A stretch of 64,000 nucleotides of DNA from Glandiceps talaboti. Taxonomy: Eukaryota > Hemichordata > Enteropneusta > Spengelidae. The translations under genes were made by a program, and so were the position numbers. Below are positions 4,901 through 63,218 of the stretch, piece by piece. The DNA lies in contig NC_135561.1 of the NCBI RefSeq assembly GCF_964340395.1, positions 434,501-498,500 of the forward strand, given 5' to 3'. A model generated the notes under the pieces. The model was given only the letters and a program-made list of their open reading frames with translations. It was not told the DNA's origin and did not search any database. How positions within the stretch are numbered: position 1 is the stretch's first letter; each line of letters starts with the position of its first letter.

Positions 4901-7900
4901 GATAAATTGAGTAACACCACCTAACAGCTAAATATAAATTAATTACAAATGAAATTTTAGTATAATAAACCAAAATATCAAGTACATGCTCCGTGTTCTC
5001 AATATCATAAGACTGGCAATACGAGAACTAGTGTTTAGTTAGTGTTGACCATTAAAGTTCATAAAAGCATTTGAATGGGTAATGATATACATTATTACAA
5101 TGTCGGTGTTTATACCAATGTAGGGTAATGATATACATTATTACAATGTCGGTGTTTATACCAACATAGCGTAAATCTTGGTAATTATATACAAATTAAA
5201 GCTTTAAATTCGTGTAGTTTGATACATATAGTAATGATAACCTGTTGGATGTTACTTGTTGATGTAGCTTTTATATCCGGCATTCTATCTTTATATCTGG
5301 CCCAGTATACTTACGGGGTATGGTAGTTGTGAAGTGGTAGGGCACTGACCCAGTATACTTACGGGGTATGGTAGTTGTGAATTGGTAGGGCACTGACCCA
5401 GTATACTTACAGGGTATGGTAGTTGTGAAGTGGTAGGGCACTGACCCAGTATACTTACGGGGTATGGTAGTTGTGAAGTGGTAGGGCACTGACCCAGTAT
5501 ACTTACGGGGTATGGTAGTTGTGAAGTGGTAGGACACTGGCCCAGTATACTTACGGGGTATGATAGTTGTGAAGTGGTAGGGCACTGACCCAGTATACTT
5601 ACGGGGTATGGTAGTTGTGAAGTGGTAGGGCACTGACCCAGTATACTTACGGGGTATGGTAGTTGTGAAGTGGTAGGACACTGACCCAGTATACTTACGG
5701 GGTATGGTAGTTGTGAAGTGGTAGGGCACTGACCCAGTATACTTACAGGGTATGGTAGTTGTGAATTGGTAGGGCACTGACCCAGTATACTTACGGGGTA
5801 TGGTAGTTGTGAAGTGGTAGGGCACTGACCCAGTATACTTACGGGGTATGGTAGTTGTGAAGTGGTAGGGCACTGACCCAGTATACTTACGTGGTATGGT
5901 AGTTGTGAAGTGGTAGGGCACTGACCCAGTATACTTACAGGGTATGGTAGTTGTGAATTGGTAGGGCACTGACCTAGTATACTTACAGGGTATGGTAGTT
6001 GTGAAGTGGTAGGGCACTGACCCAGTATACTTACGGGGTATGGTAGTTGTGAAGTGGTAGGGCACTGACCCAGTATACTTACGTGGTATGGTAGTTGTGA
6101 AGTGGTAGGGCACTGACCCAATATACTTACGTGGTATGGTAGTTGTGAAGTGGTAGGGCACTGACCCAGTATACTTACGTGGTATGGTAGTTGTGAAGTG
6201 GTAGGGCACTGGCCCAGTATACTTACGTGGTATGGTAGTTGTGAAGTGGTAGGGCACTGACCCAGTATACTTACAGGGTATGGTAGTTGTGAAGTGGTAT
6301 GGCACTGACCCAGTATACTTACGGGGTATGGTAGTTGTGAATTGGTAGGGCACTGACCCAGTATACTTACAGGGTATGGTAGTTGTGAAGTGGTAGGGCA
6401 CTGACCCAGTATACTTACGGGGTATGGTAGTTGTGAATTGGTAGGGCACTGACCCAGTATACTTACAGGGTATGGTAGTTGTGAAGTGGTAGGGCACTGA
6501 CCCAGTATACTTACGGGGTATGGTAGTTGTGAAGTGGTAGGGCACTGACCCAGTATACTTACGGGGTATGGTAGTTGTGAAGTGGTAGGACACTGGCCCA
6601 GTATACTTACGGGGTATGATAGTTGTGAAGTGGTAGGGCACTGACCCAGTATACTTACGGGGTATGGTTGTTGTGAAGTGGTAGGGCACTGACCCAGTAT
6701 ACTTACGGGGTATGGTAGTTGTGAAGTGGTAGGACACTGACCCAGTATACTTACGGGGTATGGTAGTTGTGAAGTGGTAGGGCACTGACCCAGTATACTT
6801 ACAGGGTATGGTAGTTGTGAATTGGTAGGGCACTGACCCAGTATACTTACGGGGTATGGTAGTTGTGAAGTGGTAGGGCACTGACCCAGTATACTTACGG
6901 GGTATGGTAGTTGTGAAGTGGTAGGGCACTGACCCAGTATACTTACGTGGTATGGTAGTTGTGAAGTGGTAGGGCACTGACCCAGTATACTTACAGGGTA
7001 TGGTAGTTGTGAATTGGTAGGGCACTGACCTAGTATACTTACAGGGTATGGTAGTTGTGAAGTGGTAGGGCACTGACCCAGTATACTTACGGGGTATGGT
7101 AGTTGTGAAGTGGTAGGGCACTGACCCAGTATACTTACGTGGTATGGTAGTTGTGAAGTGGTAGGGCACTGACCCAGTATACTTACGTGGTATGGTAGTT
7201 GTGAAGTGGTAGGGCACTGACCCAGTATACTTACGTGGTATGGTAGTTGTGAAGTGGTAGGGCACTGGCCCAGTATACTTACGTGGTATGGTAGTTGTGA
7301 AGTGGTAGGGCACTGACCCAGTATACTTACAGGGTATGGTAGTTGTGAAGTGGTATGGCACTGACCCAGTATACTTACGGGGTATGGTAGTTGTGAATTG
7401 GTAGGGCACTGACCCAGTATACTTACAGGGTATGGTAGTTGTGAAGTGGTAGGGCACTGACCCAGTATACTTACAGGGTATGGTAGTTGTCAAGTGGTAG
7501 GGCACTGACCCAGTATACTTACGGGGTATGGTAGTTGTGAAGTGGTAGGGCACTGACCCAGTATACTTACGGGGTATGGTAGTTGTGAAGTGGTAGGGCA
7601 CTGACCCAGTATACTTACAGGGTATGGTAGTTGTGAAGTGGTAGGGCACTGACCCAGTATACTTACGGGGTATGGTAGTTGTGAATTGGTAGGGCACTGG
7701 CCCAGTATACTTACGGGGTATGGTAGTTGTGAAGTGGTAGGGCACTGACCCAGTATACTTACGGGGTATGGTAGTTGTGAATTGGTAGGGCACTGGCCCA
7801 GTATACTTACGGGGTATGGTAGTTGTGAAGTGGTAGGGCACTGACCCAGTATACTTACGTGGTATGGTAGTTGTGAATTGGTAGGGCACTGACCCAGTAT

Positions 7901-10900
7901 ACTTACAGGGTATGGTAGTTGTGAAGTGGTAGGGCACTGACCCAGTATACTTACAGGGTATGGTAGTTGTGAAGTGGTAGGGCACTGACCCAGTATACTT
8001 ACGGGGTATGGTAGTTGTGAAGTGGTAGGGCACTGACCCAGTATACTTACGGGGTATGGTAGTTGTGAAGTGGTAGGGCACTGACCCAGTATACTTACGG
8101 GGTATGGTAGTTGTGAAGTGGTAGGGCACTGACCCAGTATACTTACGGGGTATGGTAGTTGTGAAGTGGTATGGCACTGACCCAGTATACTTACGGGGTA
8201 TGGTAGTTGTGAAGTGGTAGGGCACTGACCCAGTATACTTACAGGGTATGGTAGTTGTGAAGTGGTAGGGCACTGACCCAGTATACTTACGGGGTATGGT
8301 AGTTGTGAAGTGGTAGGGCACTGACCCAGTATACTTACGGGGTATGGTAGTTGTGAAGTGGTAGGGCACTGACCCAGTATACTTACGGGGTATGGTAGTT
8401 GTGAAGTGGTGGGGCACTGACCCAGTATACTTACGGGGTATGGTAGTTGTGAAGTGGTAGGGCACTGACCCAGTATACTTACGGGGTATGGTAGTTGTGA
8501 AGTGGTAGGACACTGACCCAGTATACTTACAGGGTATGGTAGTTGTGAAGTGGTAGGGCACTGACCCAGTATACTTACGGGGTATGGTAGTTGTGAATTG
8601 GTAGGGCACTGACCCAGTATACTTACGGGGTATGGTAGTTGTGAAGTGGTAGGGCACTGACCCAGTATACTTACGGGGTATGGTAGTTGTGAAGTGGTAG
8701 GGCACTGACCCAGTATACTTACGGGGTATGGTAGTTGTGAATTGGTAGGGCACTGACCCAGTATACTTACAGGGTATGGTAGTTGTGAAGTGGTAGGGCA
8801 CTGACCCAGTATACTTACAGGGTATGGTAGTTGTGAAGTGGTAGGGCACTGACCCAGTATACTTACGGGGTATGGTAGTTGTGAAGTGGTAGGGCGCTGA
8901 CCCAGTATACTTACAGGGTATGGTAGTTGTGAAGTGGTAGGGCACTGAGTAGTGACCAATACCCTTGCTATTCACTGCTGCCACTTTCACCGTATATGTA
9001 GTGTTTGGATTTAAACCAGCCATGTGGAACGTGTTACCTGATGATTTAATAGTTCAATGTGTTATTCCATGTATTAAGTGGATAATCAAAAGTCTAAGAT
9101 CATGTCTATGCTGTTCTATTGTATTCTATTGTATTATGTTATTATTCACTTATGTCGTCAAACAAAGGTCCAGTAATTCTAAACCTAGCTGCGTATGTAT
9201 ATAGAGCAGAGGTTTTATTAAAGGAATTCTGCTAATTTGTTTTCTGTACACTTCCGTGATATTTTGTAATCTAGTACTGGAATTTTTTTTTTTTTTGCGA
9301 TATGGGCTGGAGGCCTTAAGAAGCAATAAACCATTATTGTTTATATATATTCTATTCTGTTGTATTGTATTGTATCGTATTGTATTGTATTGTGTTGTTT
9401 TGTATTGTATTGAATTGTATTGTATTGTATTGTATTGTATTGTATTGTATCATATTGTATTGTATTGTATCATATTGTATTGTGGTGTTTTGTATTGTAT
9501 CATATTGTATTGTATTGTATCATATTGTATTGTATTGTATCATATTGTACTGTATTATATCATATTGTATTGTATTGTGTTGTATTGTTTTGTATTGAAT
9601 TGTATTGTATTGTATCATATTGTATTGCATCATATTGTATTGTGGTGTTTTGTATTGTATCATATTGTATTGTGTTGTATTGTTTTGTATTGAATTGTAT
9701 TGTATTGTATCATATTGTATTGTATTGTATTGTGTCGTATTGTATTGTATTGCATTGCATTGGATGGTATTGTTTTGTTTTGTATTGCATTGTATTGTAT
9801 TGCATTGTTATGTTAGACTATTCTATTCTATTCTCTCTATTCTTTATTTGCTCTTCTCTTTTCTTCCCTTCCCTTCCACTACATCTATTCCATTTTAGTC
9901 CATTCTATTCCATTCTATTCTATTCTATTCTATTCATAACCAATACCACTGTGCACTGACATGTCCACCTATGTCATGTATTGACATAACAGAATAGAAG
10001 TGTCTCAGTAACATCAATACCACTCTTCTCTGGTGATGTTATAATAATTTACTGATCTGTGATGTATACTTACCCATCTCAAACTTTCTTTCCTGGTGCC
10101 CAGACTTTATTCGGATTATGTATCCAGTCACTGGAACGTCATTGTGGTTTTCAGTGACTTCAACAACAACACCATTGTGAGATAAATCTGTAAACTTGAC
10201 ATCCAGTGGAGGGTAAGGTCCTATGGGATAACACATTGTGAGATCAAATCAGTAAACTTGACATCCAGTGGAGGGTATTATGGGATAACACATTGTGAGA
10301 TAAATCTGTAAACTTGACATCCAGTGGAGGGTATTATGGAATAACATAAATCATGCATATCACAATTAATTGGGTTTAACTTTAAAGAGGAACAAAGATT
10401 CGTCCTAACAGCTCACAACTTCTCTAAAATGGGAAAATGAATAAAGTTTTAAAATTACTCATGGGCTGACATCTGTTCACTTGGGTAGGGAATTCTGGGT
10501 ATGGTGCCCATTCTAATGTCATCAAGAGCATATAGTGACTTTATGTATAGTTGTTTCCTACCCTACAGTTCGACAAGGTAGAAAGACTGATAGAAATTTA
10601 GAGTACTGGTGATATGAGCATGATAAATACATAATGCCCAGAATTTCCCCCACACCAGTGTACAGGGGTGGTAGTTGCTACAAGTTATCATTTAATTACT
10701 GGGGTCGATGAACTTTGTGTTAGATAGAGGGTCAGAGTTCAAGGTTTTCACAGTTCGACATGTTGATATATATATATATGCAGTGATGAATACTTACATA
10801 GGGAAATTACTATAATTTTGTGATGTGGTACTTTTACAACATATATGGCTGTAGATAGACAGTTTATCGAGTCGGAGGTGGCATTTCAAAGTGGCAGGAA

Positions 10901-13900
10901 TGAGTGATGAAATCCTAGGTCATAGGTCATCATGATTAGACTTCATACCCATACTTAGATAGGAAGGTGCATTTGTATGATAGCACACATTTCCAAATTG
11001 TTACAGTGGCTTCTGTTTACTAAGTCCATACACTAGTAATCCATTGATGAGTATAGATCATACAAACCCTTTACAGAATCAATATATGTCTGTCAATGGA
11101 TGAACTTGATTTTTTTGTTTAGAAATTGTCAACATTGTCTGCTATACTATAATGTCAGGATTAGCTTGGTGTTGATAACTGACCCTGAAGGTCAAGGTCA
11201 AGGTCATAAGAGAAAACTTGCACTTGATAATATGAGGAAGCATGCACTTGCTTGGAGTTTCTATGTTAAAACTGAGGTGTGTAGTAAATGTTAATTTACC
11301 ATGAATATGACTGCCATTCAGTCAATTTGCATCTCTCACAAAACAAAGTGACATGCCCATGTTTCACCTGTGTACCAAGTTTGAATGAAATTGAATATTG
11401 CATATCAGAGAAATAATGTGTTATGGACAGGTGGATGGACTGAACCCATTATAATAGTTCCTGTGGGCGGATAAAAATGAAATACCCAGCAATAAATGAA
11501 TAAATAAATGAATAAATGTATACATGCATGAATGCATACATACATACATACATACATACATACATACATACATACATACATACATACATACATACATCTT
11601 CCATTTTTATGTATGATAGCTCTCCAAGGCGATTGAGCACTCTACTTGGCGAAAGAAGAATGAAACTCTATGTACATACATACATACATACATACATATA
11701 CATACATACATACATACATACATACATACATACATACATACATACATACATACATACATACATACATACATCTTCCATTTTTATGTATGATAGCTCTCCA
11801 AGGCGATTGAGCACTCTACTTGGCGAAAGAAGAATGAAACTCTATGTACATACATACATACATACATACATATACATACATACATACCAGGGTTCTCCAC
11901 AATTTAGAAAAATACAGGGGCGCCCTAATTGGGTGTAAATGTGTCATTTATTGTAATTGCCGTCTGTCTAGGGATGACCTCAGTGTTGACCTCTTTGGTA
12001 TGACATCATCGTTTAGTATGTTAATGTAAGAGTAAGCCCTGTACTGCGCATGTGCATGAATTTACTTTTCATTGTAAACTTTCAATCGGTCGTGTGTGGA
12101 GCTGCTCAGTATTTTGGGGCAATAATTTCTCTCATATGTCCCTCCGACTTTGTACCACTTGTCGCAAACCTATCCAGGGCCACCAGGGACTAAGTGGGAA
12201 GCTTTGTTCTGTCAACATGTCAGGGAATTCAAGCGATAATATGGAAGGGGCGGACGTCAATTTAGCAGGTCCGAGTACAAGTACCAGCGACCAGGCCAAC
12301 GGAGGCAAGCATAAGTCAACAGCCAAGTCATCTAAGGACAGGCTAACCAGCCGAGACGACGGTGCAGGTATACAGAGACAGGTTGACAGGTTGGCGGACC
12401 AAATGAAAATATTAACCGAGCATGTAATGGGGAACACCACATCACCCAAGGAGGAGGTAGACCGACCTCACAACTCCGGTACTCGCTACGATCGCCCTTC
12501 GATGAAAGATCTACGTAAAGAAAAAGTTTTACAACGTTCAGTAGCGAAATTGCTCACGCTAGAAAAAGACTCATCATCTTCTACCGTAGATTCAACGGCA
12601 TCATCGACACAAGATTTCAGCGACTCCGAGTCAAGCGATGTACAATCGAATACAAATTCGCGCACATTCAAGACAAGCAGGAAATGTAGCAATACTAAAA
12701 GGAGCGGGAAACCAACGACGCGACGCCAATCGGCAAGTGCGGCCTCATGTAAAAACAAAGGTAAGACTATGAAAAGTGGAGCTCAAAGGAGGTCATCTGA
12801 CAGGGTAAAGAAATATGTACCTTGGCCACACGAGTTTGTTCAGGACCCCAACCCGGGTCAGTTAGACGAAATTAGATATGAGGATCTGTCATTAACTCAG
12901 TTCGTTATAGGCGAGCTAGAAATCATTCAATCCGCGACTTTGACCAGAAATGAAGCTAAGCACAGACTCGCACATCTGCAAGATCTCATGACAGATGCAT
13001 TATTATACCCGTGGGATCGTGTACGTAAATTTCACAGTATCATTTTGCATGCCCTCGAATTACGTCAACTACATTGGGGTGATAGTTTCGACAACATACA
13101 TGCAAAATTTGTTCGGAACCCACCAACTAATAGTAATAGTAACACTAATAATAATACAGTTACGCACGTATCCACAACATCCGGGTATCAGAAGAAAACA
13201 CGCGTACTACGATACTGTGCAGCATATCAGTCGAACACGTGTGCTTTCAGCAAAGATCACACAGTGGACGGACAGTTGGAAAAACACGTCTGTTCAGCCT
13301 GTTTACGCTTCAGACGTCTGGAAAAACGTCACACTTCATTAGATTGTCCTTACAACGACAAATCGTTCAGAGAACAACAACACAAAGACAAAACAATCAA
13401 GGAATGACAATCGGAGAACAATAACATTGAGAGTAGTAGTATGAACATTAACGAGTCTGTTAATTTTTTTGACAGTTTAAGTATACAATAGACACCGGTG
13501 GAAAGATAAACAACAAGGCGGAGCCGCGTTGTTTATCTTTCCACCGGTGTCTATTGTACTTATGCCCGACAAGTTCACAGGATGGCAGGATTAGTCCATC
13601 TCACCCTTGCTAGACTAGATTAAGATAAAGTACACACTGTCTCACCCCTTGCCAGGCTAGGTGATGATAATAACTGAGATAAAAGTGTACACATTCGGGT
13701 GAGGACACACACAGCATGCAGTGTTCACGGCGAAGAAATAAGCCATACAACATTCACAAGCCCTGATATGACTGAACAACGAGACGTGTCTAATATTATA
13801 GTGTAGCTCATCTGAAGATCTGTGTAAAATTCGTTTTTTAAATGTTTACCGTTTCTTTTGAATGGTAACAGTTGTGCCCTTCATCCTTAAACCCTTACTG

Positions 13901-16900
13901 TGCAGTCACTACTCCATTCATGGTACAGTAGTAAAACTAGTATGACTTATTTTTAATACTACTCGCCACAACTATTTTTCTCCGTAATTAAGTTCTCCTC
14001 GTAATTTTGGCAAATTATTTTGGTCCGGGTCGTACTCTTGCATTTCATTCTTGAGACCATGGAGGCTCCCCTTCTATACTTCCATGTGCAGGCATATGGT
14101 TTTTGACTTTGCCGGACTGGTTTTACTTGAACTACAAAGGTCAACCCAATTCACACCTTCTAAGTCCCCCTTTGTCTTACACTATCCAATACTGATAAGA
14201 CTTCAGCGGCAACTCAGACAAGGAGGTGGTTATAACCCGCTACACAAACTTTAATATTAGCTCCGGTAGAGGACTGCTAATCCCGTACATGTCAAACAAT
14301 GTGTCAACATTATGACAGATAAAGGGCATAAAATGTGTTAGTGACTCTGGTTTTACTTTTTGTGATAAGATTCGTACAAGGGATGAGTTAGATTTTAATT
14401 TCCAATCAACTCACTTGCCACTTGGTAGGGTGAGTAGTGTTTCTGATTTTTATTTTGATTTCCAGTCCACTCCTTCACAAATTTTGAGTGGGGAGACAAA
14501 TTCACATACTAGTTACTGTTGTGATGCTGGTTGTAAGGAAGGCAACCAGTCATCAGGGGAAGTAGTATCTTCCGTACCTCCAAATGCAGCAAAGTTTATA
14601 AATAGTGTTTCACCGTCAAGTTTCAACAGTAATTCTGCAACTTTTGATGGAGACTTTTACTTTGAAGACAGTCTTTCAGTAAGACCCTGCATTACTACTA
14701 ATGACAGTAACACTAGTTTGCCGGTGTGTGGCAAGCACAATGATTTTTACAGTGACATTTTTAATGGCATATTCCATGTTCCTAGTTTAATACCTCAAGT
14801 GTTTACACCCTTTTGTGGTGAGAGTTCATATTTTCTTAACAACACCGGTTGCAATGTTAGTCACTTAAGTACAGTTAAGGGTCATAGTATGATTCATAAT
14901 AGGCAGTCAGCCGGTCCAGCTAGCAATCAGGCGCGCACATCACTTAGCGAGTCTACATGCGGGCAAAGTGTCTCGCGTCGTAACCAGCCCCCCATTTCAC
15001 CAGGTACACCAAACCCAAGCTTTTTGTATCCCAAGTACAAGAACCGTAGTATGGAAAACCTAACTTTACATGTTCAGTTTCCAGAGTTACCCAGCTGGAT
15101 AGCACCACCATCTGTTACTTGGCCACCTGCACAAAATATTTCCATAGCATGGCTACGTGATGTGCATTATCAAGTGTTACAGTTGGGAAAACCCAATTTC
15201 TTAGGTGCTCGTTTACCAGTACACAGTGGATTAAATATTCCGGAATGGCGTTCTTGTCTCCGGGGTTATCCAGATTATGGGGTGATAGAATTTTTAGAGT
15301 TCGGTTGGCCAGTCAATTACACTTCCCCTTACTTACCAAAGACTACTAACCGCAATCATGCATCTTCTTTGAATTTTGCAGAGCACATTGACAAATTTAT
15401 TTGCAAGGAGGTTACTTTAGGTGCCACAGCAGGCCCCTTCTCAGATAACCCACTCAAATTGCCCATTGCTACCTCACCCCTCTCTTCAGTACCCAAGAAA
15501 GGGAAAGATGAACGCAGGATGGTAATGGATTTGAGCTTTCCACATGGTACTTCAGTAAACGATGGTATTCCCCATGACACATTTTTAGGCCAACCTTCCC
15601 ACCTAACTTATCCTAATATTGATGCACTTTCAGATATCATTCGTGACCTGGGCCCAGGTTGTCTATTGTTCAAGCTGGATTTGCGAAGAGCATACCGCCA
15701 ATTACCCGTTGACCCGCGCGATTTTCACTTGCTGGGATTCACCTGGAGGGGGTCACTTTTCATTGACACTAAGCTGCCCTTTGGGCTGAGGTCAGCAGCA
15801 ATGGCCTGTCAAAGGACAACTAATGCTATCATTTATATCTTTCAGCAGTTGGGATTCAAGGCCATTAATTTCTTAGATGATTTTTGTGGAGCAGACTTGC
15901 CACACCGTGCACATTCAGCTTTCCTTGCTTTCCGTAGACTTTTAGTACAGCTAGGAGTGGAAGAGGCAGTGGACAAAGCAGTAGCCCCTACAACTTCTCT
16001 GTCTTTCATTGGCATTTCAGTGGACACCGTTACAATGACCTTGCGAGTAACTGAAGACCGACTTACCGAGATCAAACAATTGTTGGTCATTTGGTTAGAT
16101 CGGAAGAAGTGCACAAGAAGAGAACTGCAAGTTTTAATAGGCAAACTGTCATTTGTTGCAGGTTGTGTCCGGCCAGGAAGGCTCTTTATGAGCCGCATGT
16201 TAGCAACTTTAAGGTCAGTTCATTCTTCTAGGCACCACATTTTCCTCAATGGACAATTTCGGAAGGACTTGCAGTGGTGGTACTTGTTTATATGTCGTTA
16301 CAACGGTGTGTCTATCATACCTGATAAGGCTTGGTCAACAGCAGATAGTATAGTGGCTACTGACGCATGCCTCTCTGGTTGTGGTGGCATTACTCATAAC
16401 CAGTTCTTTCACTGTGCTTTCCCAGATTTTATAGCAGCACAGCACTTGGGTATTCACTGCTTGGAAGCACTTACCATTGTCGCCGCGGCGCGTTTGTGGG
16501 GCAACAACTGGGCAGGGCGCCGTATACTTGTATTTTGCGATAACATGGACGTGGTACTGGTCCTGAATTCTGGCAAAGCACGCGACTCCTTTTTGCTCAC
16601 TGCAGCCCGCGAACTTTGGTTTTTAGCGGCACTTAACGAGTTTGAACTCAAAGCAGTTCATCTGCGTGGTTCGGACAATAGATTAGCAGATTGCCTTTCT
16701 CGCTGGCATTTAAGTAATTCATATGCTAGGTCATTTTTAAATAGCACTAGGCACCTAGGGCTAGCAGAAGTGAATATTCCCACTGATCACTTTCGCTTTT
16801 GCAATCCGTTTTAATCTCATTGCAGACAGGAAACATCAATTACAGCTGTTGCAAGAGGACTTGCGGCTTACTAGGTTAGCAGCTTTCAGACCGGGGACTC

Positions 16901-19805
16901 GTCGCAACCTGGTTACCCAGTTTCATGCATTTGGACTATTCTGTTCACATTTTGATTTCAAACCACTTCCAGCATCATCTGAGACACTCTCATTATATGC
17001 ACAATTTCTCTCTCGTTCATTCCGTAACCCAGCATCTATTGGTAACTATTTGGCTGGTGTCAAGACTTTGCACATTTTACTGGGCCATCCAGTTGATTCA
17101 TTCTTGGCTTTAGAACTGAAATTAACATTGGCAGGGCTGAAGAAATCCAGCACGCACACGCCATTGCAAAAATTACCTATTACTCCTGCCATGTTAGCCA
17201 ATATCCTTAAGTTGATTGATCGTTCTGACACTTTTTACTCAGCTGTCTGGTGTGCAATAATAACAGGCTTTTTTACTTTTCTTCGCAAGTCTAATCTTGT
17301 ACCACTTTCACAGAAAGGTTTTGACCCTTCTCGGCATCTTTGCCGAAAAGACATTGATGTTCAAAGGGACTTTGTTATGATCGCTATTCGTTGGTCCAAG
17401 ACACTTCAATGTCACGAACGCATTTTATTGCTGCCCTTAGCACGCATTTCAGGCAGCGCACTTTGCCCAGTGTCGGCGTTCAAGTGTTTATTTAGTAAGG
17501 TACAGGCGGCTGGTGAAGCGCCAGCTTTTACCTTCCTCAAAAAAGGGAAGCTTGTTCCACTTACACAAGGTATGCTCTCGCGCGCTTTCAGCAAACTGAT
17601 ACAAATGCTTGGGGAGGACCCACGTCTGTACTCTCTGCACAGCTTGCGGCGGGGTGGCGCAACACTGGCCTTCGAGGCCGGGGTACCGACTGACCTTATT
17701 AAGCTTCATGGCGACTGGCGGTCAGAGGCGTACACCTCTTATATCAGGGTACCTTTGCAAGCACGCCTGTCGGTTTCCAAGTGTATGGCAGGTCTGGCAT
17801 GTACTCAACTAGCGCAATAGTAGCATTCTCGGTTGTGGACACTGTCTGTCCCTTATTAAGACTTTAAGTCCAGTGCACAGCTATGTATTATATGTAAATG
17901 AGATGTTATTGCAGTTTGCACAACCAAATTTGAGTGGGTCAGTTTGGGTGACGTCGTTTAGTCACAGTGTTTGTAATTCGTTAGGGTTTAGGTAGACTTT
18001 CTACCCCCTTTTTAGAGAGTTCATTTTGAAAAAAGAATTGTTTGTTAATTGCATTATGTCACAGGGTCATACCGCACACAGTTGGATTGCACGGCAAGCC
18101 AAACTACATACCTTAGCCTTACTCAGGCCCTAGCCAGCTTAAACTATACACTAACACCAGCAGTGCAGCCACGGCCTCATCAATAACAAAATTTCATTTA
18201 AAATATATATTTTTGGCGGCTGTTTGTCTGGTGGAGTTCATAATTAAACTTCTTGAACTTCCGGTATTTGCCGCCAAACTTACACCAGTATCCGTGTCAT
18301 TCATTTAACTGCACCTTCTTTACCTTAGGAGGGTAATTGGGTGTAAATGTGTCATTTATTGTAATTGCCGTCTGTCTAGGGATGACCTCAGTGTTGACCT
18401 CTTTGGTATGACATCATCGTTTAGTATGTTAATGTAAGAGTAAGCCCTGTACTGCGCATGTGCATGAATTTACTTTTCATTGTAAACTTTCAACCCACCC
18501 ACCCACTGCCATCATAACCGGTAAGAGCAATGTATTTGTAGGGTGACAAATTTTGAAAGATTTATATTTCTGAGATTATTCAGACTTTTGCCATGTATTG
18601 GTACTTTTGCCATGTATTGGATTTGGTGGAGTTCATAATTAAACTTCTTGAACTTCCGGTATTTGCCGCCAAACTTACACCAGTATCCGTGTCATTCATT
18701 TAACTGCACCTTCTTTACCTTAGGAGGGTAATTTGCATATTTATTTGCATATCATTAGCATATTTCCAGATCATAATATTAGGAAGTGAAAAAAGTTTCC
18801 AAAATCAAAAACTCCTATTTTATTCATTCAGCAAACTAAAATGTACTGAAATGTATTGTAATCACCAATTTCCAAACCTTTCACATAATTCACAATGTAA
18901 AAATTTCAGGAAGGAGGTTGACAGTTACACAAACGATGTTATAGTAATGTTGGCAAGCATGTTTTACACACAGGAGTGACAACACATGGCATTGTTGATG
19001 TACATGTATGCACCTCTAGGCTAGCTATCACTTAGTTTTGAGTTGTTGGTTTCACCTTGTAAATGTGCATGTCATTCATAAAAATTAATTGAAAACAATT
19101 CATTTTCCTTTATTTCTCTAAAATTTGATATCCTTTTAATTTTCATGAATGGAAAATGATTTTTCATCCAAATTTGCCGGAAATACGTACATTTTTAATG
19201 TGACGAATTTGGGCTAAGAATAACCGAATACGTTCAGTGCAAATGTACAGTAACAAACATGGCTGCCACTTCGGAGCTACCTCGTGGTACTACGATCGCG
19301 ATTCACATCCAAACGTGATCATTTAGGACATAAATTTTACCATGGAACCGTACCGGAGTAGTTATTTCTAAAGAACATGTATAAATTTTAGGATTTTGTT
19401 CGTATTTATCGATACAATACGAAAATTGCCGTGACATCGTACATCGTATGCGTACTGTATTACGTATACGGGAAGGCTTGGAAATTACCGGCTTGATATA
19501 CCCGGCCATAGAAACTACCAACGTACCGTCTTCTACTTTACGACGGTACTACATTTACTGTTTTTGTTTCGGCTACCATTGTTATAATCAAGGCGATAAA
19601 TAAGTTCATAAATGATGATAGACGCAGTGTCGCTGTTTACTTCCTTCATTAACGGCATTGAATAGAATCTCTTGAAGACGTTCACACCAAAACAAAGGGG
19701 CGCTGAACGCAAACAGAGGGGCGGTCCATGAAAACAGAGGGGCGGTGCGCCCCTCAAAAACCCCTCGTGGAGAACACTGCATACATACATACATACATAC
19801 ATACA

Positions 19806-19836
<31 letters not shown>

Positions 19837-20534
19837 CATTCTATTTTCACTGTTGACTGCAAAAGATAATTTCTGATTGTAAGATATGTATTGATTCAAT
19901 TTTAGTATATATCAAGTAATTATATTTACCGTGTATCAATTGTCATGTACTGTTATGTTAAGCTGTATTGTCTTGTCATATTTTAAAATTACGCTAATAT
20001 GTTAATACTGTGGTTGTTCTCAATAACATGCTTACTTGCTGATGGATCATAACAATGGTACGTTGAAGAATCCATCCTTGATGGCAGTGAACTGCAATCC
20101 AAGGTTTCAGGCCATTGGAAGCCAAATCTATTCATCAGAGCGACGCATCCCGATCTGGCTTGTTGACACAGTTCTGCACATGGTGGATACACAACATTGG
20201 CATAACATCTTGGTGAGTACATGGCACACAGGAAGTCTCTCAGGTATGGGGAACATTCCACTTTGACAAGAGGAAAGAACTGATGAACCTCAAGACCAGC
20301 ATCTTCTTGAATACGATGGTTTAAAAAGTTTGGGAAACCAGCGTGAGTGTAGTTATGGAGATCTTTACATAGTGGTATTGTAATCTCTTCACATGTCCTA
20401 AATCTGACAAAATCTGTTGATTGGGGACTTTGCTCACTAGTAGACAGACCGGTGTCACTTGATACAATCAACAGGTGGCTCTTTCTAACAAAGTGAAAAA
20501 ACAACAATATTGTACACTGTTTGAGAAAGAACAT
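451..20534 (-). CDS. Frizzled-domain/FN3 extracellular protein, gene-level model (9 exons, 562 residues)
   Basis: Exons, 5' to 3': 20534-20036 (Frizzled), A 10220-10074, B 9037-8915, C 4353-4226, D 3866-3686, E 3013-2855, F 1981-1867, G 1261-1091, H 616-451. All have GT/AG borders and matching phases; joined they give 562 codons plus TGA. Domain order: short hydrophobic start, 10-cysteine Frizzled domain, FN3 (A+B), FN3 (C+D), unassigned segment (E), cysteine motif duplicated (F-H). Frizzled domains bind Wnt-type ligands and FN3 domains are adhesive beta-sandwiches, so a secreted or surface protein is likely; no transmembrane segment is seen. I do not recognise a named orthologue. The Frizzled exon may belong to the same gene (phases match, A|GA) or, less likely, to another. 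The first exon and start codon are uncertain. The largest intron holds an antisense retrotransposon. Confidence 0.7.
2216..2570. repeat. 70-bp intronic minisatellite
   Basis: Four to five units with a 70-bp period (for example at 2251, 2321, 2391, 2461) between exons E and F. Each unit contains CTGCAGTCACAAATACAG. Flanks from about 2000 to 2800 hold decayed versions of the same words, so the array was once longer. It does not touch an exon. Confidence 0.85.
2855..3013 (-). CDS. Exon E, unassigned 53-residue segment
   Basis: It enters in phase 1 (G|AA) after TTCCAG and leaves in phase 1 (ACA G|GTAATT). It encodes a segment with [11 protein letters not shown], which resembles the F-strand cysteine region of Ig-like domains, but a matching first cysteine and tryptophan are not evident. 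I do not assign a fold. It joins exon D in frame upstream and exon F in frame downstream. Confidence 0.7.
3686..4353 (-). CDS. Exons C and D: second FN3 domain
   Basis: Exon C (4353-4226) and exon D (3866-3686) together encode one FN3 domain. C starts with Pro-rich SPPLITSP and holds the B-strand tryptophan (VLKWEAP) and the C-strand [11 protein letters not shown] holds the typical tail [16 protein letters not shown] and ends FFTFSTAS. The intron lies between the domain halves in phase 0, and exon B (ending T|) joins exon C (CC) in frame. The family fold is certain enough from these landmarks; ligand unknown. Confidence 0.8.
4360..5289. other. Intron B-C, non-coding part without the array
   Basis: AT-rich intron with no exon seen. 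A 42-bp word beginning GGGTAATGATATACATTATT occurs twice in tandem near 5078-5165. Nothing else is recognisable. Confidence 0.6.
5290..8950. repeat. 48-bp splice-donor minisatellite, about 76 copies
   Basis: Each 48-bp unit, read on the minus strand, is the last 35 bp or so of FN3 exon B followed by its 5' splice site and start of intron (CCATACCCCGTAAGTATACT). The first copy, at 8950-8915, is the real exon end. Because 48 is a multiple of three and the unit has no stop, one frame stays open for 1,250 codons with a 16-residue period ([16 protein letters not shown]). Copies differ mainly at three sites: CCCTGTAAGT, CCCCGTAAGT or CCACGTAAGT; CACTTC or CAATTC; TCAGTG or CCAGTG. A block of 22 units is itself duplicated (see findings). 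Confidence 0.95.
8915..10220 (-). CDS. Exons A and B: first FN3 domain
   Basis: Exon A (10220-10074) encodes [15 protein letters not shown] and the strand [11 protein letters not shown]. Exon B (9037-8915) encodes [20 protein letters not shown] followed by [11 protein letters not shown], the classical end of an FN3 domain. They join in phase 1 (ATG G|GT). Exon B ends at the first of about 76 identical-phase donors, so its true 3' end could vary. Exon A has two decayed copies of its 5' edge directly upstream (10221-10345). Confidence 0.8.
9350..9945. repeat. TATTG pentanucleotide tract and TTCTA tract
   Basis: About 470 bp of (TATTG)n with CATAT and GTGTT variants (9350-9820), followed by TTCTA/TTCCA repeats (9825-9945). 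It lies in the intron between exons A and B. Long open frames here (rich in Cys, Ile, Leu and Tyr) are artefacts of the five-base period. Confidence 0.95.
10220..10345. repeat. Tandem copies of the 3' splice site of exon A
   Basis: On the minus strand the real acceptor reads CCCATAG|GACCTTACCC. Two further copies of the surrounding 60-odd bp lie just upstream. They keep the exon words CCCTCCACTGGATGTCAAG and the intron words CACAATGTGTTATCCC, but both read CATAATACC where the acceptor should be, so their AG is lost. Confidence 0.9.
10346..11515. other. Intron sequence with a dispersed repeat
   Basis: No exon seen. About 11000-11400 contains words (GGTCAAGGTCA, CTGCCATTCAGTCA, AAAACAAAGTGACAT) that recur near 24600-25400 and, inverted, near 60900-61250, so this is a low-copy dispersed repeat. 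Confidence 0.55.
11516..11888. repeat. CATA microsatellite in two blocks
   Basis: (CATA)n interrupted by an 80-90 bp word (CTTCCATTTTTATGTATGAT and onward, ending TCTATGTA) that is present twice, so a compound unit of repeat plus spacer has been duplicated. It ends at CAGGGTTCTCCAC, which recurs with the same CATA tract near 19770-19840. Confidence 0.95.
11927..12085 (+). repeat. Ngaro-like terminal repeat A1
   Basis: 159 bp starting AATTGGGTGTAAATG and ending GTAAACTTTCAA. Matched base for base, as far as I can read, by A2 at 18335-18493. Preceded by CAGGGGCGCCCT of the host flank. Confidence 0.9.
12136..13407 (+). CDS. gag-like protein of the Ngaro-like element
   Basis: 423 residues from the first in-frame ATG at 12136 (the frame is open further upstream but without ATG). 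The N-terminal third is Ser/Thr/Lys-rich and low complexity. A conserved-looking block starts at [18 protein letters not shown] and continues through [15 protein letters not shown]. The C-terminus carries a Cys/His cluster: [11 protein letters not shown], then [15 protein letters not shown] and DCPY, like the zinc-finger-type motif at the end of DIRS/Ngaro gag proteins. Expected role: packaging the element RNA. TGA ends the frame 77 bp before the palindrome. Confidence 0.75.
   Translation: MSLRLCTTCRKPIQGHQGLSGKLCSVNMSGNSSDNMEGADVNLAGPSTSTSDQANGGKHKSTAKSSKDRLTSRDDGAGIQRQVDRLADQMKILTEHVMGNTTSPKEEVDRPHNSGTRYDRPSMKDLRKEKVLQRSVAKLLTLEKDSSSSTVDSTASSTQDFSDSESSDVQSNTNSRTFKTSRKCSNTKRSGKPTTRRQSASAASCKNKGKTMKSGAQRRSSDRVKKYVPWPHEFVQDPNPGQLDEIRYEDLSLTQFVIGELEIIQSATLTRNEAKHRLAHLQDLMTDALLYPWDRVRKFHSIILHALELRQLHWGDSFDNIHAKFVRNPPTNSNSNTNNNTVTHVSTTSGYQKKTRVLRYCAAYQSNTCAFSKDHTVDGQLEKHVCSACLRFRRLEKRHTSLDCPYNDKSFREQQHKDKTIKE
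13484..13558. repeat. 31-bp perfect palindrome (hairpin) in the retroelement
   Basis: Left arm 13484-13514 and right arm 13528-13558 are exact reverse complements; arm begins TACAATAGACACCGGTGG. The 13-nt spacer holds GCGG-AG-CCGC, which extends the stem. It lies 77 bp after the gag stop. Confidence 0.95.
13715..14345. repeat. Segment with an inverted diverged copy at 21005-21550
   Basis: Non-coding stretch between gag and RT frames. Words such as AATAAGCCATACAACATTC, TTGAATGGTAACA, GGTCAACCCAATTCACACC and CAACTCAGACAAGGAG reappear in reverse complement at 21005-21550 with scattered substitutions and indels. It may be the gag-RT spacer of a related element, or a separate element nested in this one. 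Confidence 0.85.
14316..16814 (+). CDS. Reverse transcriptase and RNase H of the Ngaro-like element
   Basis: Frame open from 14316 to TAA at 16812-16814. There is no ATG before 14889, so translation starts there (641 residues) or by another route. RT landmarks in order: [18 protein letters not shown], catalytic Asp in [13 protein letters not shown] (about 15670), [19 protein letters not shown], and the LDD motif in INFLDDFCG (about 15870), then LSFIGISVD. RNase H follows: [34 protein letters not shown] and [10 protein letters not shown] supply the acidic residues. All key residues are present and there are no stops or frameshifts. It copies the element RNA into DNA. It overlaps the recombinase frame at its 3' end in the +1 register. 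Confidence 0.9.
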   Translation, partial: QIKGIKCVSDSGFTFCDKIRTRDELDFNFQSTHLPLGRVSSVSDFYFDFQSTPSQILSGETNSHTSYCCDAGCKEGNQSSGEVVSSVPPNAAKFINSVSPSSFNSNSATFDGDFYFEDSLSVRPCITTNDSNTSLPVCGKHNDFYSDIFNGIFHVPSLIPQVFTPFCGESSYFLNNTGCNVSHLSTVKGHSMIHNRQSAGPASNQARTSLSESTCGQSVSRRNQPPISPGTPNPSFLYPKYKNRSMENLTLHVQFPELPSWIAPPSVTWPPAQNISIAWLRDVHYQVLQLGKPNFLGARLPVHSGLNIPEWRSCLRGYPDYGVIEFLEFGWPVNYTSPYLPKTTNRNHASSLNFAEHIDKFICKEVTLGATAGPFSDNPLKLPIATSPLSSVPKKGKDERRMVMDLSFPHGTSVNDGIPHDTFLGQPSHLTYPNIDALSDIIRDLGPGCLLFKLDLRRAYRQLPVDPRDFHLLGFTWRGSLFIDTKLPFGLRSAAMACQRTTNAIIYIFQQLGFKAINFLDDFCGADLPHRAHSAFLAFRRLLVQLGVEEAVDKAVAPTTSLSFIGISVDTVTMTLRVTEDRLTEIKQLLVIWLDRKKCTRRELQVLIGKLSFVAGCVRPGRLFMSRMLATLRSVHSSRHHIFLNGQFRKDLQWWYLFICRYNGVSIIPDKAWSTADSIVATDACLSGCGGITHNQFFHCAFPDFIAAQHLGIHCLEALTIVAAARLWGNNWAGRRILVFCDNMDVVLVLNSGKARDSFLLTAARELWFLAALNEFELKAVHLRGSDNRLADCLSRWHLSNSYARSFLNSTRHLGLAEVNIPTDHFRFCNPF
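16774..17820 (+). CDS. Tyrosine recombinase of the Ngaro-like element
   Basis: Open from 16774 to TAG at 17818-17820; overlaps the end of the RT frame by about 40 nt in the +1 frame. No ATG lies before the catalytic domain, so it is probably made as a fusion by frameshift. N-terminal SAM-like core-binding region ([25 protein letters not shown]). Catalytic residues: Arg in [12 protein letters not shown] (about 17290), His-x-x-Arg in [10 protein letters not shown] (about 17640), His in LHGDWRS (about 17705) and Tyr in AYTSYI (about 17735). The set is complete. The enzyme should integrate a circular DNA copy through a 3'-phosphotyrosine link, as in DIRS-order elements. Confidence 0.9.
   Translation: MFPLITFAFAIRFNLIADRKHQLQLLQEDLRLTRLAAFRPGTRRNLVTQFHAFGLFCSHFDFKPLPASSETLSLYAQFLSRSFRNPASIGNYLAGVKTLHILLGHPVDSFLALELKLTLAGLKKSSTHTPLQKLPITPAMLANILKLIDRSDTFYSAVWCAIITGFFTFLRKSNLVPLSQKGFDPSRHLCRKDIDVQRDFVMIAIRWSKTLQCHERILLLPLARISGSALCPVSAFKCLFSKVQAAGEAPAFTFLKKGKLVPLTQGMLSRAFSKLIQMLGEDPRLYSLHSLRRGGATLAFEAGVPTDLIKLHGDWRSEAYTSYIRVPLQARLSVSKCMAGLACTQLAQ
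17821..18228. other. 3' non-coding region of the retroelement
   Basis: No open frame of interest; lies between the recombinase stop and B1. Contains no recognisable motif beyond AT-rich stretches. Confidence 0.6.
18229..18338 (+). repeat. Ngaro-like repeat B1
   Basis: 110 bp from TGGTGGAGTTCATAATTAAA to GGAGGGTAATT; identical by eye to B2 at 18624-18733. Its last bases overlap the first bases of A2 (AATT). Confidence 0.9.
18335..18493 (+). repeat. Ngaro-like repeat A2
   Basis: Second copy of the 159-bp A repeat, followed by CCCACCCACCC and about 130 bp before B2. Confidence 0.9.
18624..18733 (+). repeat. Ngaro-like repeat B2, 3' end of element
   Basis: Second copy of the 110-bp B repeat. 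The host sequence resumes with TGCATATTTATTTGC. Confidence 0.9.
18734..19700. other. Intron sequence, CpG-containing patch
   Basis: No exon found. Around 19180-19560 CpG is commoner than elsewhere (TACGTAC, CGATCGCG, ACGGTACGT), which may mark an old promoter or a transposon remnant. No domain is encoded. Confidence 0.4.
19700..19835. repeat. GGGGCG-rich repeat end joined to a CATA tract
   Basis: Contains three AGAGGGGCGG-like words, then GGAGAACACTG and (CATA)n. On the minus strand the order is CATA tract, CAGTGTTCTCCAC, GGGGCGC: the same order, with the same words, as 11860-11926 on the plus strand. CAGTGTTCTC resembles hAT transposon ends, so a hAT-derived MITE is possible. Confidence 0.6.
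20036..20534 (-). CDS. Frizzled cysteine-rich domain exon
   Basis: 166 codons plus one base; donor GCA A|GTAAGC at 20036. All ten Frizzled-domain cysteines are present and in order: [32 protein letters not shown] and YHC. Typical family words: [35 protein letters not shown]. The domain binds Wnt or fatty-acylated ligands in Frizzled and SFRP proteins. Start chosen at ATG 20534, where a Lys and a run of [10 protein letters not shown] could be a signal peptide; a 3' splice site at TACTAG (20436) or CAACAG (20413) is the alternative. The closing phase fits exon A at 10220 and makes an Arg codon. Confidence 0.8.
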
Positions 20535-21004
20535 GGCTGTATCAAATGTATGGTAGCACTGTGGTGTAGGACAGACTATCGTGACATGTTATGCTGCTCA
20601 CATCGATCTGAAAGACATAACATGGCTTATCTTATCTCTGAAAGTACCATAGTGATTTAGCAAACAACAGGAAGTCTCCAGTCAGTTGATAAACGGTTGT
20701 CAAGGTTGCTACAGCTATTACTAAATATTTTCAAAAACTGAACAACAGTTTGTGTATTGCACTACTTGCTTTGTGTACAAGCTCTGACATACTGTAACAA
20801 GATGTGAACTAAAAATTCCAAAGATTGTAGTTTGTCAAGGCTGAAGATATTCAATTGCAAAAATCATTTAATCAAACAGTTAATTATTCAGATCATACAA
20901 ATTGTACTTCTTTCCAATATTATTGTACTTCAAATGAATTTCATGTATAATTAATCTCACGTTAATTTTGAATCAGTTGCATATTTTTAATATTAGAGTT
21001 TATA
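20535..21004. other. Upstream region of the Frizzled exon
   Basis: AT-rich, no domain-coding exon found on either strand. It would hold the promoter if translation starts at 20534, but I see no convincing core promoter element. Confidence 0.4.
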
Positions 21005-21550
21005 CCCTTTAGCTGTCAAAATGTTGACTCGGTTTTTGACATGTACAGGATTAGCAGTCGTCTACTGGAGCTAATATCAAAGTCTGTGTAGCAGGTTATA
21101 ACCAACTCCTTGTCTGAGTTGCTGTTGAAGTCTTATCAGTATTGGATAGTGTAAGACAAAGAGGATTTAGAAGGTGTGAATTGGGTTGACCTTTGTAGTT
21201 CAAGTAAACCAGTCCAACAAAGTCAGAAACCATATGCCTGGACATGGAAGTATAGAAGGGGAGCCTCCCTGGAGAATGAAATGCAAGAGTATGGCCCGGA
21301 CCAAAATAGTTTGCCAAAATTATGAGAACCTCATTACGGAGAAAAAGAGTTGTGGAGAGCAAGTGGTATTAAAAATAAGTCATACTACTGCACCATGAAT
21401 GGAGTAGTGACTGCACAGTAAGGAGGACACAACTATTACCATTCAAAAGAAACGGTAAACATTTAAAAAAGAATATTACACAGTCTTCATATGAGCATGG
21501 AGGTATAAGGGGAGAATGTTGTATGGCTTATTTGTTTCGCCATGAACACC
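21005..21550. repeat. Inverted diverged copy of the retroelement spacer
   Basis: Reverse-complement relative of 13715-14345. Flanked on the right by a G homopolymer of roughly 26 bases (about 21552-21576). Confidence 0.85.
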
Positions 21551-21589
21551 CGGGGGGGGGGGGGGGGGGGGGGGGGTGTACTCCCACCT

Positions 21590-23635: not shown

Positions 23636-56216
<32,581 letters not shown>

Positions 56217-59500: not shown

Positions 59501-62500
59501 ATATTATCCTTGGCTATGCCTCGGATATTTACAGTAAATGGCCTCTGACTTGACGTATAATTATCAGTAATATATTTCTTTGTTTTGTTATTAGGTGGTG
59601 GTTGTTAATGATTCTCCTCCTTTTGATATCAATGTGTACATCGTCACCTGCAAAGAGTGTGCCAACATCAAGCCAAAACTTCAAAGTGAATTTGAAGAAA
59701 ACGCTCGCCTAAAGCAGTCTTTAGAGCGACTTCGACGGGAGGTGTCATTGGACGGTCCGACAAAGGATAAAAAGAATACAAAAGAAGAAGTAGCAGACAT
59801 AAAAGAGGAGGATGAGGAGGAGGAAGATGACATACAAATTGACTTCAAGAAAACAGTCAAGAAATTTGATCGCCTACAAACTGTATCTAATTCATTGCAC
59901 AAAAGTGTTGTCTCTCCCGACTGTAAAGAATATACCAATTTGAAGAAAGCTGTCAGTGTCGCCGTGGAAACTGGAAAGATGCTCCTCAACAAGGTTGAGA
60001 GATTGGAAAGTAAGATTTCTAATGCCGCAGCAGAAAGTGATCGACAGCAAGAAATGATGCGAGAAATGAGGGCAGAAATAACTGATCTCCAGTGCGAAAT
60101 AACGGAGCTGAAAAACTCCAATAGCGAAATAACCAAGGAGTTCAAACGAGAGAAGAAAGAAGCATTATCAGCTTTAGAGGAAACCAAAAACAGACATGCT
60201 GCTGCTCTGTACAAACAACTGAAAGAAATACAGTCACATACCAAAGACAAAGAACGACAGAATGCAATGTCTCGGGATAGATTACGCATACAGGTGGAGA
60301 AACTCAGTTTTATCACTAAGCAAGACAGGGAAAGGTTGTTCAACGTAATGAACAACCCTAGTATTGAGAGCTGTATAGCAAATATACTGGCTACTGCTGA
60401 GAAACAAATTCACAACCTTGCAGACCAGGTAAATGCAATAATGTTACAGAACGCCATGTCGCGCATGTGTGGTAGGTATACAAGGGGTCTTTGTATGAGT
60501 GCATGCAGTGCAGTGTGCCCTCTAAGGATAGCTAAATTTTGTTGTTGTGAGTCAAAATGAGAAAAACTGGGATTTCTTGTGAGTCATCACATAGTAAGAG
60601 ATAGGGGAACACCAAATTTTGGTGCGTCACTAGAAATTGTATGCATCAGTGGTGCAAAATTGGCCTAGAGGGCACACTGATGCAGTGTCCTCTGTGACTG
60701 TACCTTCATGAACATAGCTAGTGAAAGTGCAGCAGAAAACACTGCCAGCGCAAGTGCAAATACACCTGTGTACCCGCTTTGGCACTCAGAGAGGTTCTGC
60801 TATTAATCCCCAACAGGTGAGGCCCAGAGGGCACTACTACATTGGGTCCCATCTATCTGTCTCTCAGTCCATTACCACCTGTATCTCAAACATCCTTGGG
60901 CTAATTTAAACCAAACCTGGCACAAATGTCATATGCTATAGTGAGCATACATGTATGCATGTCTTTTTGTTTGTAAAAATTCACAAAACTTTGGAAATTA
61001 GATAGAGACCTAATTTGAGTTTCTACACCTACGTTATTTCTGATAAGCTTTCTAATGAGACTTTGACCTTGACCTCTACATGTATGTTCAAGGTCAAATA
61101 ACCAAAATTGTTCAAAGTGTATATGTTTACATCTCAAGCAAACCTGAGATATGCACATTACTTTGTTTCACAACCTTCATGATATTGGTTGAAAGGCAGC
61201 CATATTTGTTGTAAAAATTCACATTTTGCCCAAGTCTGGAAGCATAATAGATGGCAACCTCGTTTGAGTGTCTACACCCATAATATCGATATTTAGCTTT
61301 TGAGGAAAAAGGAGAAGAAATTCTTTGATCTTGTAAGATACGTCGTGATGTTTCGCCCTCACCGGCCTCCTCTCACACTGTGTTAGGGGTTGGCCGATGG
61401 TTGAGGGCGCCCTGTCACGGCGTACCTTACAGACTATGCATACAGCTGCACAAGTAGTACATTTACCTGCAGCTTATTTAATGGTGTTCAGGGCATACAA
61501 TATTTTGACAAGGTTTATGAAAGTCATTGTATCAAACAGTTTCAGAAAATAGTCCACTTGCAGCTGGTGTAGCTTTAACAAGTTGAAACTATGAGTATGA
61601 TATGTCTGTTTGAAAAAGCTAAGGTATAAAAATAGTAAAAAAACAAACTTCATGTCTTTTTTGTACTCAATCCCTACTGAAAAGTATAACAGTATGTCTG
61701 TATATATTCATCAGATTCGGTCCAAGGATGAGACAATACAACATTTTGTTCATGCTAAAAGGGCTGGTTCTAATAATAAGCTGATGGAAATTGAAAGTGG
61801 ATCACGCAAGAGTGGAATACTTTATCTTCGTACTCTTGGAACTCATGATCGAGCCACTTGGGTGCAGTGTTCCCACCCACCAAAAGATACAGACAATGCT
61901 GTAAGGAACAAAACTTTCCTGGACAGAGTGAAGAGTCTCCAAAGGGTAAATAACCATCTATTAACTAGAATGTACCATGGAAGTAAACTCTTAAACTTTT
62001 AATTTATTGTTACTTTGTTTAAGAAAACTCCAACCCCTTCTCAATTAAAATCAAGGAAAGAAATCAGGGGTCAGGAGTCATTGTATATCTCAAGAAGCTC
62101 TCAACACCAGCAACCGAGAGACATGACTTGGTGTTACTATCTCAAGAAGCTCTCAACACCAGTAACCGAGAGACATGACTTGGTGTGACTATCTCAAGAA
62201 GCTCTCAACACCAGTAACCGAGAGACATGACTTGGTGTTACTATCTCAAGAAGCTCTCAACACCAGTAACCGAGAGACATGTCTTAGTGTTACTATCTCA
62301 AGAAACTCTCAACACCAGTAACCGAGAGACATTTCTTGGTGTTACTATCTCAAGAAACTCTCCACACCAGTAACCGAGAGACATGACTTGGTGTTACTAT
62401 CTCAAGAAGCTCTCCACACCAATCCAAAGCAGATGCAATTTAGAAGTACAGAAATCTATTTTGAATTTGAAATTACAGTTCTGCTAAAATCTGAGTGGAC

Positions 62501-63218
62501 CTTGATTGATGACTCCTAAGTGCTTATTCCCTTCAGTATAAAACATTTCTCATGAATATACATTGTTCAACTATGAGTAATCATTTCTGCTGACTCCCAT
62601 GATGCAAAGATACCCTATAAAGGCACAAGATCAAATCTGAAATCACACATAATTGTAGGTGAATCTGAACCCGTAGAAAATGTCTGCAATTCGTGTAGTG
62701 GTATTCTCTTTTGAAAGAAATGGACTGGAAGAGATGTAAAGATTGAAAAGTAACAGAGAGCTTCCTGTGATAGTGATGATGACACATTTCAAGGCTTACA
62801 ATTACATGGTCAGAGTTGGAATGTTTTTGTCTGAAATAGTCTTTCATTTAGTCTTTCGGCATGTGATATCTTCAGTTGTACCCCATACAAAGGACAATTT
62901 GGTGTTGACGCTATCAAAACTTTATATCGTCTGTCATTATTTTTTACCCCATACAAAGGACAATTTGGTGTTGACGCTATCACAACTTATATCGTCTGTC
63001 ATTATTTTTTACCCCATACAAAGGACAATTTGGTGTTGACGCTATCACAACTTTATATCGTCTGTCATTTATTTATTTGTAGGCATGGCATGTGATATCT
63101 TCAAGTGCAACCCCTACACATGATGATTTGGTGTTGACACTATCACAACTTGTCAGAATGAATCCTACAGTTACAGCAAAAGCACTGAAAGAAGCTCGGC
63201 TACACACACTGATGAACA
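56509..63218 (+). CDS. Unrecognised coiled-coil protein, 5' part (continues past the window)
   Basis: Proposed exons: 1 56509-56562 (MKDIHLQLPRNPQDRPGW), 2 59595-60428, 3 60733-60816 (weak acceptor, optional), 4 61715-61945, 5 63083-63218 ending in phase 1. All earlier borders are phase 0, so exon 3 can be skipped without frameshift. Exon 2 encodes about 278 residues: VTCKECANIKPKLQSEF, an acidic run (EEDEEEEDDIQIDF) near residue 90, then heptad-like coiled coil from roughly 120 to 270. Exon 4 (IRSKDETIQHFVHAKRAG, GILYLRTLGTHDRATWVQC) and exon 5 (DDLVLTLSQLVRMNPTVTAK) look globular. I cannot name the family; a cytoskeletal or centrosomal role would be a guess from the coiled coil only. Confidence 0.7.
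57335..57415. repeat. Imperfect hairpin
   Basis: Arms around AGTACATGTGGTTC and GTAATGG..CCACATGTAC; part of intron 1 of the coiled-coil gene. Confidence 0.6.
57550..59590. other. Intron 1 of the coiled-coil gene
   Basis: No exon found. CCCTGGAAAA-type words cluster at 58198-58290 and again at 59370-59440, and TTTACTGTAAAT/TTTACAGTAAAT occurs near 58165 and 59530 in inverted fashion, so an inserted element of about 1.4 kb is possible. No transposase seen. Confidence 0.4.
60890..61440. repeat. Dispersed repeat and CGCCCTCA inverted repeat
   Basis: 60900-61270 is a reverse-orientation relative of the repeats at 11000-11400 and 24560-25420. 61360-61415 holds CGCCCTCACCGGCC and GGCCGATGGTTGAGGGCG as an imperfect hairpin. 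Confidence 0.6.
62075..62425. repeat. 52-bp minisatellite
   Basis: About 6.5 units of GAAGCTCTCAACACCAGTAA plus CCGAGAGACATGACTTGGTG. Lies in the intron between exons 4 and 5 of the coiled-coil gene. Confidence 0.95.
62858..63160. repeat. Array over the 3' splice site of coiled-coil exon 5
   Basis: Three upstream units of about 65 bp carry diverged exon 5 sequence (GGACAATTTGGTGTTGACGC, against GATGATTTGGTGTTGACAC in the exon) and upstream intron (ATCGTCTGTCATT). The first also has GGCATGTGATATCTTCA, the exon start. None of the decoys keeps the acceptor TTTGTAG of the real site (63082). Confidence 0.9.

Follow-up and report, generated by a model that had tools for sequence, protein, structure and literature searches.

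Several exon edges in three neighbouring genes of the hemichordate Glandiceps talaboti lie within or beside tandem repeats, which raises the question of whether some process duplicates exon edges in particular, or whether such duplications are merely tolerated there. The window analysed here is a stretch of 64,000 nucleotides (NC_135561.1, positions 434,501 to 498,500). An earlier note, made from its letters alone, had pointed to eight such places and had left both readings side by side.

Gene Models and Exon Edges

Human CAND1 (chain 1u6g_C) was the match for the CAND1 exons encoded in the window, and its spliced alignment to the minus strand gave 36 pieces, with 923 identical columns out of 1224. 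After two pieces were merged into one exon and the first coding exon (56216-56175) was added separately, the final model (56216-23642, minus strand) comprises 36 coding exons, the last being 23766-23642, and 1241 codons with zero stops, a TAG lying one codon further on. The median coding exon length is 102 bp (35 exons measured). These edges were determined independently of the coordinates in the earlier note, and the exon numbering used there turned out to be the same as that of the homology-based model. The human CAND1 gene has 15 exons; the split into 36 coding exons, far above this number, is possibly due to lineage-specific intron gain.

The other two models are partial, and are based on open frames and splice consensus. 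The Fz/FN3 gene fragment (20036-1092, minus strand) starts with a Fz exon that ends at 20036 and whose start is not fixed, followed by exons 10220-10074 (exon B), 9037-8915 (exon A), 4353-4226, 3866-3686, 3013-2855, 1981-1867, and 1261-1092. A single open frame runs from exon B through the last exon found, the join between the Fz exon and exon B is putative, and Pfam matches were obtained for Fz (1.1e-28) and fn3 (1.2e-23). The coiled-coil gene fragment (59595-63218, plus strand) consists of exons 59595-60428, 61715-61945, and 63083-63218, which share one open frame with splice consensus at the joins; a comparison with Pfam gave nothing over the curated cut-off. An Rfam scan returned 0 matches at the gathering score.

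Duplications Spanning Exon–Intron Boundaries

A local tandem duplication is present at the exon edge in all eight places named in the earlier note. The accompanying claim, that the repeat unit contains a real splice site, has to be given up for coiled-coil exon 5, the unit of which lacks one. A junction was considered to sit within a local direct duplication when the best local alignment covered at least 6 bases on either side of it. This was the case for 7 of the 90 modelled junctions (a set that excludes the donor of CAND1 exon 1), namely the donors of CAND1 exons 14, 20, 21, 24, and 34 and of FN3 exon A, and the acceptor of FN3 exon B. A score of zero, given when the best alignment does not cross the junction, was obtained for the remaining 83; the test takes only the best alignment per side, and weaker echoes, such as that at coiled-coil exon 5 (scored 0), may escape it. 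A self-BLAST overlap test recovered 6 of the 90 junctions and missed CAND1 exon 34, while TRF detects seven of the eight named places, the CAND1 exon 24 echo being absent from its list.

All the donor-side duplications lie on the minus strand. The CAND1 exon 14 array (42937-43650; TRF unit of 33 bp, 21.6 copies) takes in 24 bases of its exon (43812-43627), the exon 20 array (38067-38989; 38 bp, 24.3 copies) 14 bases of exon 39061-38976, and the exon 21 array (37387-37618; 57 bp, 4.1 copies) 37 bases of exon 37696-37582. At exon 34 (25695-25635), the duplication is limited to two copies (25582-25667; 44 bp, 2.0 copies by TRF). A diverged echo of the exon 24 donor (35292-35484; exon 35544-35449), found by self-BLAST, has its second copy in the intron, at a depth of about 122-131 bp, and its two copies (35423-35484 and 35292-35362) are 78.9% identical over 71 aligned columns. 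By far the largest array is found at the donor of FN3 exon A (5297-8948; exon 9037-8915), where TRF reports a 48-bp unit in 76.1 copies, in frame with the exon.

Two duplications lie on the acceptor side: one at FN3 exon B (10168-10346, minus strand; 56 bp, 3.1 copies by TRF; exon 10220-10074), and the other at coiled-coil exon 5 (62845-63100, plus strand; TRF 62879-63074, 65 bp, 3.0 copies), the third exon of the partial model (63083-63218). An intronic duplication (45858-45933, minus strand; TRF 37 bp, 2 copies) also adjoins the acceptor of CAND1 exon 11, which starts at 45856. Its upstream copy has AAT where the other has AAG, and no extension into the exon was seen in the alignment.

The unit sequences had been described as unrelated, and this broadly holds: among the 28 pairs formed by the eight units, 5 reached P ≤ 0.05 against shuffles. 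They scored 17-22, equal to about 9-11 matching bases, a similarity that appears little above what the splice consensus would give.

Donor Copies and the Use of Decoys

The donor hexamer is intact in 127 of the 127 copies inside five donor arrays (21, 24, 4, 2, and 76 copies). It reads GTAAGT in 21/21 copies at CAND1 exon 14, 2/2 at exon 34, and 76/76 at FN3 exon A, GTAAGC in the 24 copies within the exon 20 array, and GTTAGT in 4/4 copies at exon 21; a 25th place, past the end of the exon 20 array (24.3 copies by TRF), has no GT and is excluded from the 127. The decoy GT is also retained in the exon 24 echo (GTATGT, against GTACGT at the real site). Column by column, the three large arrays vary at 0 of 18 donor positions and at 22 of 101 others (Fisher P = 0.018 with the copies realigned and the end copies dropped; P = 0.18 before realignment, which dealt with indels at exon 14).

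Arrays that do not touch a boundary provide a comparison. The share of copies with an intact donor-like hexamer is 15 of about 18, 20 of about 22, and 9 of about 14 in three of them, and a fourth (41184-41703) has kept all of its hexamers (5 on one strand and 6 on the other, in 5 copies). The TRF match percentages are 91, 95, 92, and 98% in these four arrays, and 96-97% in the boundary arrays, so part of the difference in hexamer retention reflects age. No sense-strand excess of donor-like hexamers is claimed, as the intronic arrays carry them in the sense orientation in some cases and antisense in others. Donor retention probably stems from the exchange of units between places in the array, which would put a defective copy at risk of reaching the working position, or else from recent homogenisation; as the copies are not independent, the latter may account for part of the invariance.

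The consequences of using a decoy were deduced by translation for donors 2-4 of CAND1 exons 14, 20, and 21 and donor 2 of exon 34. Each of the decoys translated gives an in-frame stop, or a frameshift with stops, so that, compared with these decoys, the CAND1 reading frame requires the exon-proximal donor, which would supply the functional mRNA. The 5'-most donor of an array would be the one in use. In the terminal copies, those joined to the exon, the exonic part is the same as that of a decoy type for FN3 exon A and CAND1 exons 20 and 21, and is one base off the commonest decoy for CAND1 exon 14.

Acceptor Copies

The acceptor side looks different, as AG is missing in 4 of the 5 extra copies, which come from two arrays only. 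At FN3 exon B, the alignment shows AG to be absent from both upstream copies. At coiled-coil exon 5, the duplication takes in the exon start. Both inner repeats, however, lack the acceptor AG along with the intron end and the first exon bases, and the outermost copy carries a displaced AG only; this is a derived case, in which the inner units have lost the acceptor.

The real donor is transcribed first in its array and the real acceptor last. A positional rule is tentatively proposed, by which extra donors, situated downstream of the real site, would be preserved, and extra acceptors, situated upstream of it, would be stripped of AG. If this were general, the first-transcribed site would win, even with as many as 75 competitors of equal strength, and the growth of arrays at exon edges would be filtered by this rule. 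The rule would account for both the donor and the acceptor patterns, with two acceptor-side arrays being only suggestive. Simple AG scanning does not fully account for the acceptor cases, and fits FN3 exon B poorly: the AG lost there would be some 56 nt upstream, farther out than another AG at 36 nt. No statement of such a donor/acceptor rule was met in the available portions of PMC3087553 and PMC3902484, in a literature search that had a wider aim than this point.

If the rule were to hold genome-wide, boundary minisatellites would form a natural experiment, in several replicates, on how one splice site is chosen among identical ones, with one array offering 76 donors, and would show that a minisatellite can grow beside a coding exon at no cost.

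Comparison with Chance Expectation

CAND1 contains 18 minisatellites (TRF rows with a period of at least 15 and a score of at least 50, after removal of redundant rows), totaling 7,380 bp of its 30,366-bp span and touching 17 of the 34 introns examined. With repeats this abundant, some should touch exon edges, and array density by itself is no evidence of an edge-aimed process. The P values for edge overlap given below are post hoc and depend on the null model. When one unit per array is placed at random, but not wholly within an exon (the seed-unit null), 4 of the 18 CAND1 arrays are seen at donors against 0.71 expected (P = 0.0045), and 0 at acceptors against 0.70 expected (both sides, 4 against 1.41, P = 0.045). 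For the three genes pooled (24 arrays), the corresponding values are 5 against 0.93 for donors (P = 0.002) and 1 against 0.94 for acceptors (P = 0.62), with P = 0.008 for the total of donors and acceptors. Random placement of whole arrays gives the opposite picture: 7.6 donors and 7.7 acceptors (15.3 in all) are expected to be covered in CAND1, and the 4 and 0 seen constitute a depletion (total P = 0.0006), 14 of the 18 arrays containing no junction.

Counting by position, 5 of 34 donors and 0 of 35 acceptors of CAND1 lie in duplications (P = 0.025), against 132 of 400 random intronic points. In the three gene models taken together, local repeats span 3.9% of the exonic and 26% of the intronic positions. 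Overall, introns are rich in arrays, exons and acceptors have few, and donors tolerate them, the seed-unit null giving donors a modest excess.

These figures make it unlikely that a process targets exon edges, and donors above all, for instance through splicing-linked R-loops or slippage-prone sequence seeding tandem duplications. Such a process would explain why donor arrays exceed the seed-unit expectation, in CAND1 as in the pooled genes, and why donors prevail over acceptors. Nevertheless, coverage is lower at donors than at random intronic points, far fewer junctions are covered than whole-array placement predicts, acceptors show no excess, and most of the CAND1 arrays are junction-free, while the tests in its favour are post hoc. 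Between the two possibilities raised in the earlier note, an edge-duplicating process or selection tolerating such duplications, the data speak for tolerance (5/34 against 132/400; 4 against 15.3 expected) and only weakly for targeting, although the donor excess by the seed-unit null (P = 0.0045) leaves room for a mutational bias.

The arrays are probably mirage-type minisatellites that arise by ordinary turnover and are tolerated at exon edges, in a genome where minisatellites abound; any bias towards donors would be mild. An ordinary tandem duplication would hit a piece of DNA that happens to span an exon edge, and slippage or unequal exchange would then change the copy number. On the donor side, the first copy would remain joined to the exon and would still be the first donor transcribed; splicing at this donor would leave the mRNA unchanged, and the later copies, being intronic, would allow the array to grow or shrink almost freely into the intron. 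On the acceptor side, extra copies would precede the real one in the transcript and would take priority over it, leaving as survivors those devoid of AG. The pattern would then be one of selection on where duplications are tolerated. Both this reason for AG loss and the mutational mechanism are what we infer from the arrangement of the copies.

Relation to Mirages and to Intron Gain

The earlier note mentioned boundary-spanning minisatellites reported in amphioxus under the name of mirages, and repeats of that name are indeed described in lancelet genes in PMC3087553 and PMC3902484. The former reports them in the globin genes BflGb6 and BflGb9 and cites Adh3, and the latter adds a mirage in PGBD5 and cites troponin C, in Branchiostoma. 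The unit lengths given are 10-72 bp for Adh3, 60 and 108 bp for PGBD5, and 150-160 bp for the globins. According to these papers, mirages occur at both donors and acceptors and are said to leave the normal mRNA undisturbed, and the terminal copies of the BflGb6 mirage are reported to be outside homogenisation (PMC3087553).

The boundary arrays of the present window fit the same phenomenon, the preservation of the mRNA being predicted for CAND1 from the reading frame. As in the lancelet cases, a tandem unit spans the exon-intron boundary, at donors and acceptors alike. Unlike in those cases, eight are found in three neighbouring genes, one of them with 76 copies, and most of the acceptor-side copies have no AG, whereas many, but not all, of the lancelet globin repeats carry AG/GT signals (PMC3087553). 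The case therefore adds three genes to the phenomenon described in lancelets, and argues that a special edge-targeting process is unnecessary.

Intron gain by tandem duplication of segments carrying AG/GT proto-splice sites is discussed in PMC3087553, and a potato RdRp is a reported case (PMC4974935). The duplicated segments of the present window also carry splice signals; in contrast to that model, there is no clear sign here of an intron made by duplication. It is very unlikely that the arrays seed new introns, with decoys turning into exons and the repeats between them into introns, as proposed for the lancelet globins. The high number of coding exons in CAND1 compared with the human gene, and the fact that the decoys are full donor sites, would fit such a scheme, as would the donor and acceptor flanks of 4 of the 34 CAND1 introns, the similarity of which exceeds the shuffled 95th percentile (about 1.7 expected). 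However, the best of the 34 scores 22, short of the 99th percentile at 23, and the mean similarity of 15.1, against 14.2 in shuffles, is no clear excess.

The 48-bp Array at FN3 Exon A

The array at FN3 exon A displays 19 unit types among its 76 copies, as well as a higher-order structure, made of tandem copies of a block some 22 units long (1,056 bp); 23 of the 54 unit pairs at a spacing of 22 units are identical. The block hints at turnover, possibly of large pieces, or possibly at an assembly fault, since a tandem block is a pattern that misassembly could produce. The view that misassembly inflated the copy numbers, or created the arrays themselves, is nonetheless hard to credit, as two-copy and diverged cases exist (CAND1 exons 24 and 34, FN3 exon B) and as the copies include many variants.

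The phase-1 donor of exon A leads in frame to the next exon (4353-4226), and the frame of exon A is stop-free for 1,217 codons through the array. The distinct changes between copies, which are few, comprise 3 synonymous and 10 nonsynonymous ones, out of 37 and 100 possible, a ratio that looks as expected of unconstrained intronic DNA. The view that the open frame is translated was set aside, given this lack of synonymous bias. Very improbable is a coding splice ladder, in which any of the 76 in-frame donors could be used and would lengthen the part behind the FN3 domain by a 16-residue linker, once or several times over: a 48-bp unit divisible by three, the long open frame, and a GTAAGT in every copy would suit it, but there is no synonymous bias, a second frame has one stop only, which makes the open frame a property of the unit, and the four CAND1 TRF arrays give stops.

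Other Repeats and Elements in the Window

Another CAND1 intronic array (50679-51712; 46 bp, 22.5 copies) has a unit that, in the antisense (plus) orientation, contains two motifs similar to splice sites, TTTACTTTCCAG for an acceptor and GTAAGT for a donor.

Between the Fz exon and FN3 exon B lies an element with three long open frames (11926-18733). Its Pfam matches to reverse transcriptase and tyrosine recombinase are weak, just under or under the curated cut-offs, and it has split direct repeats, each pair being 100% identical (160 nt at 11926/18334 and 110 nt at 18229/18624). We take it to be a DIRS/Ngaro-like retroelement. A diverged antisense piece at 20980-21330 resembles, by eye, positions 14100-14300 of this element.
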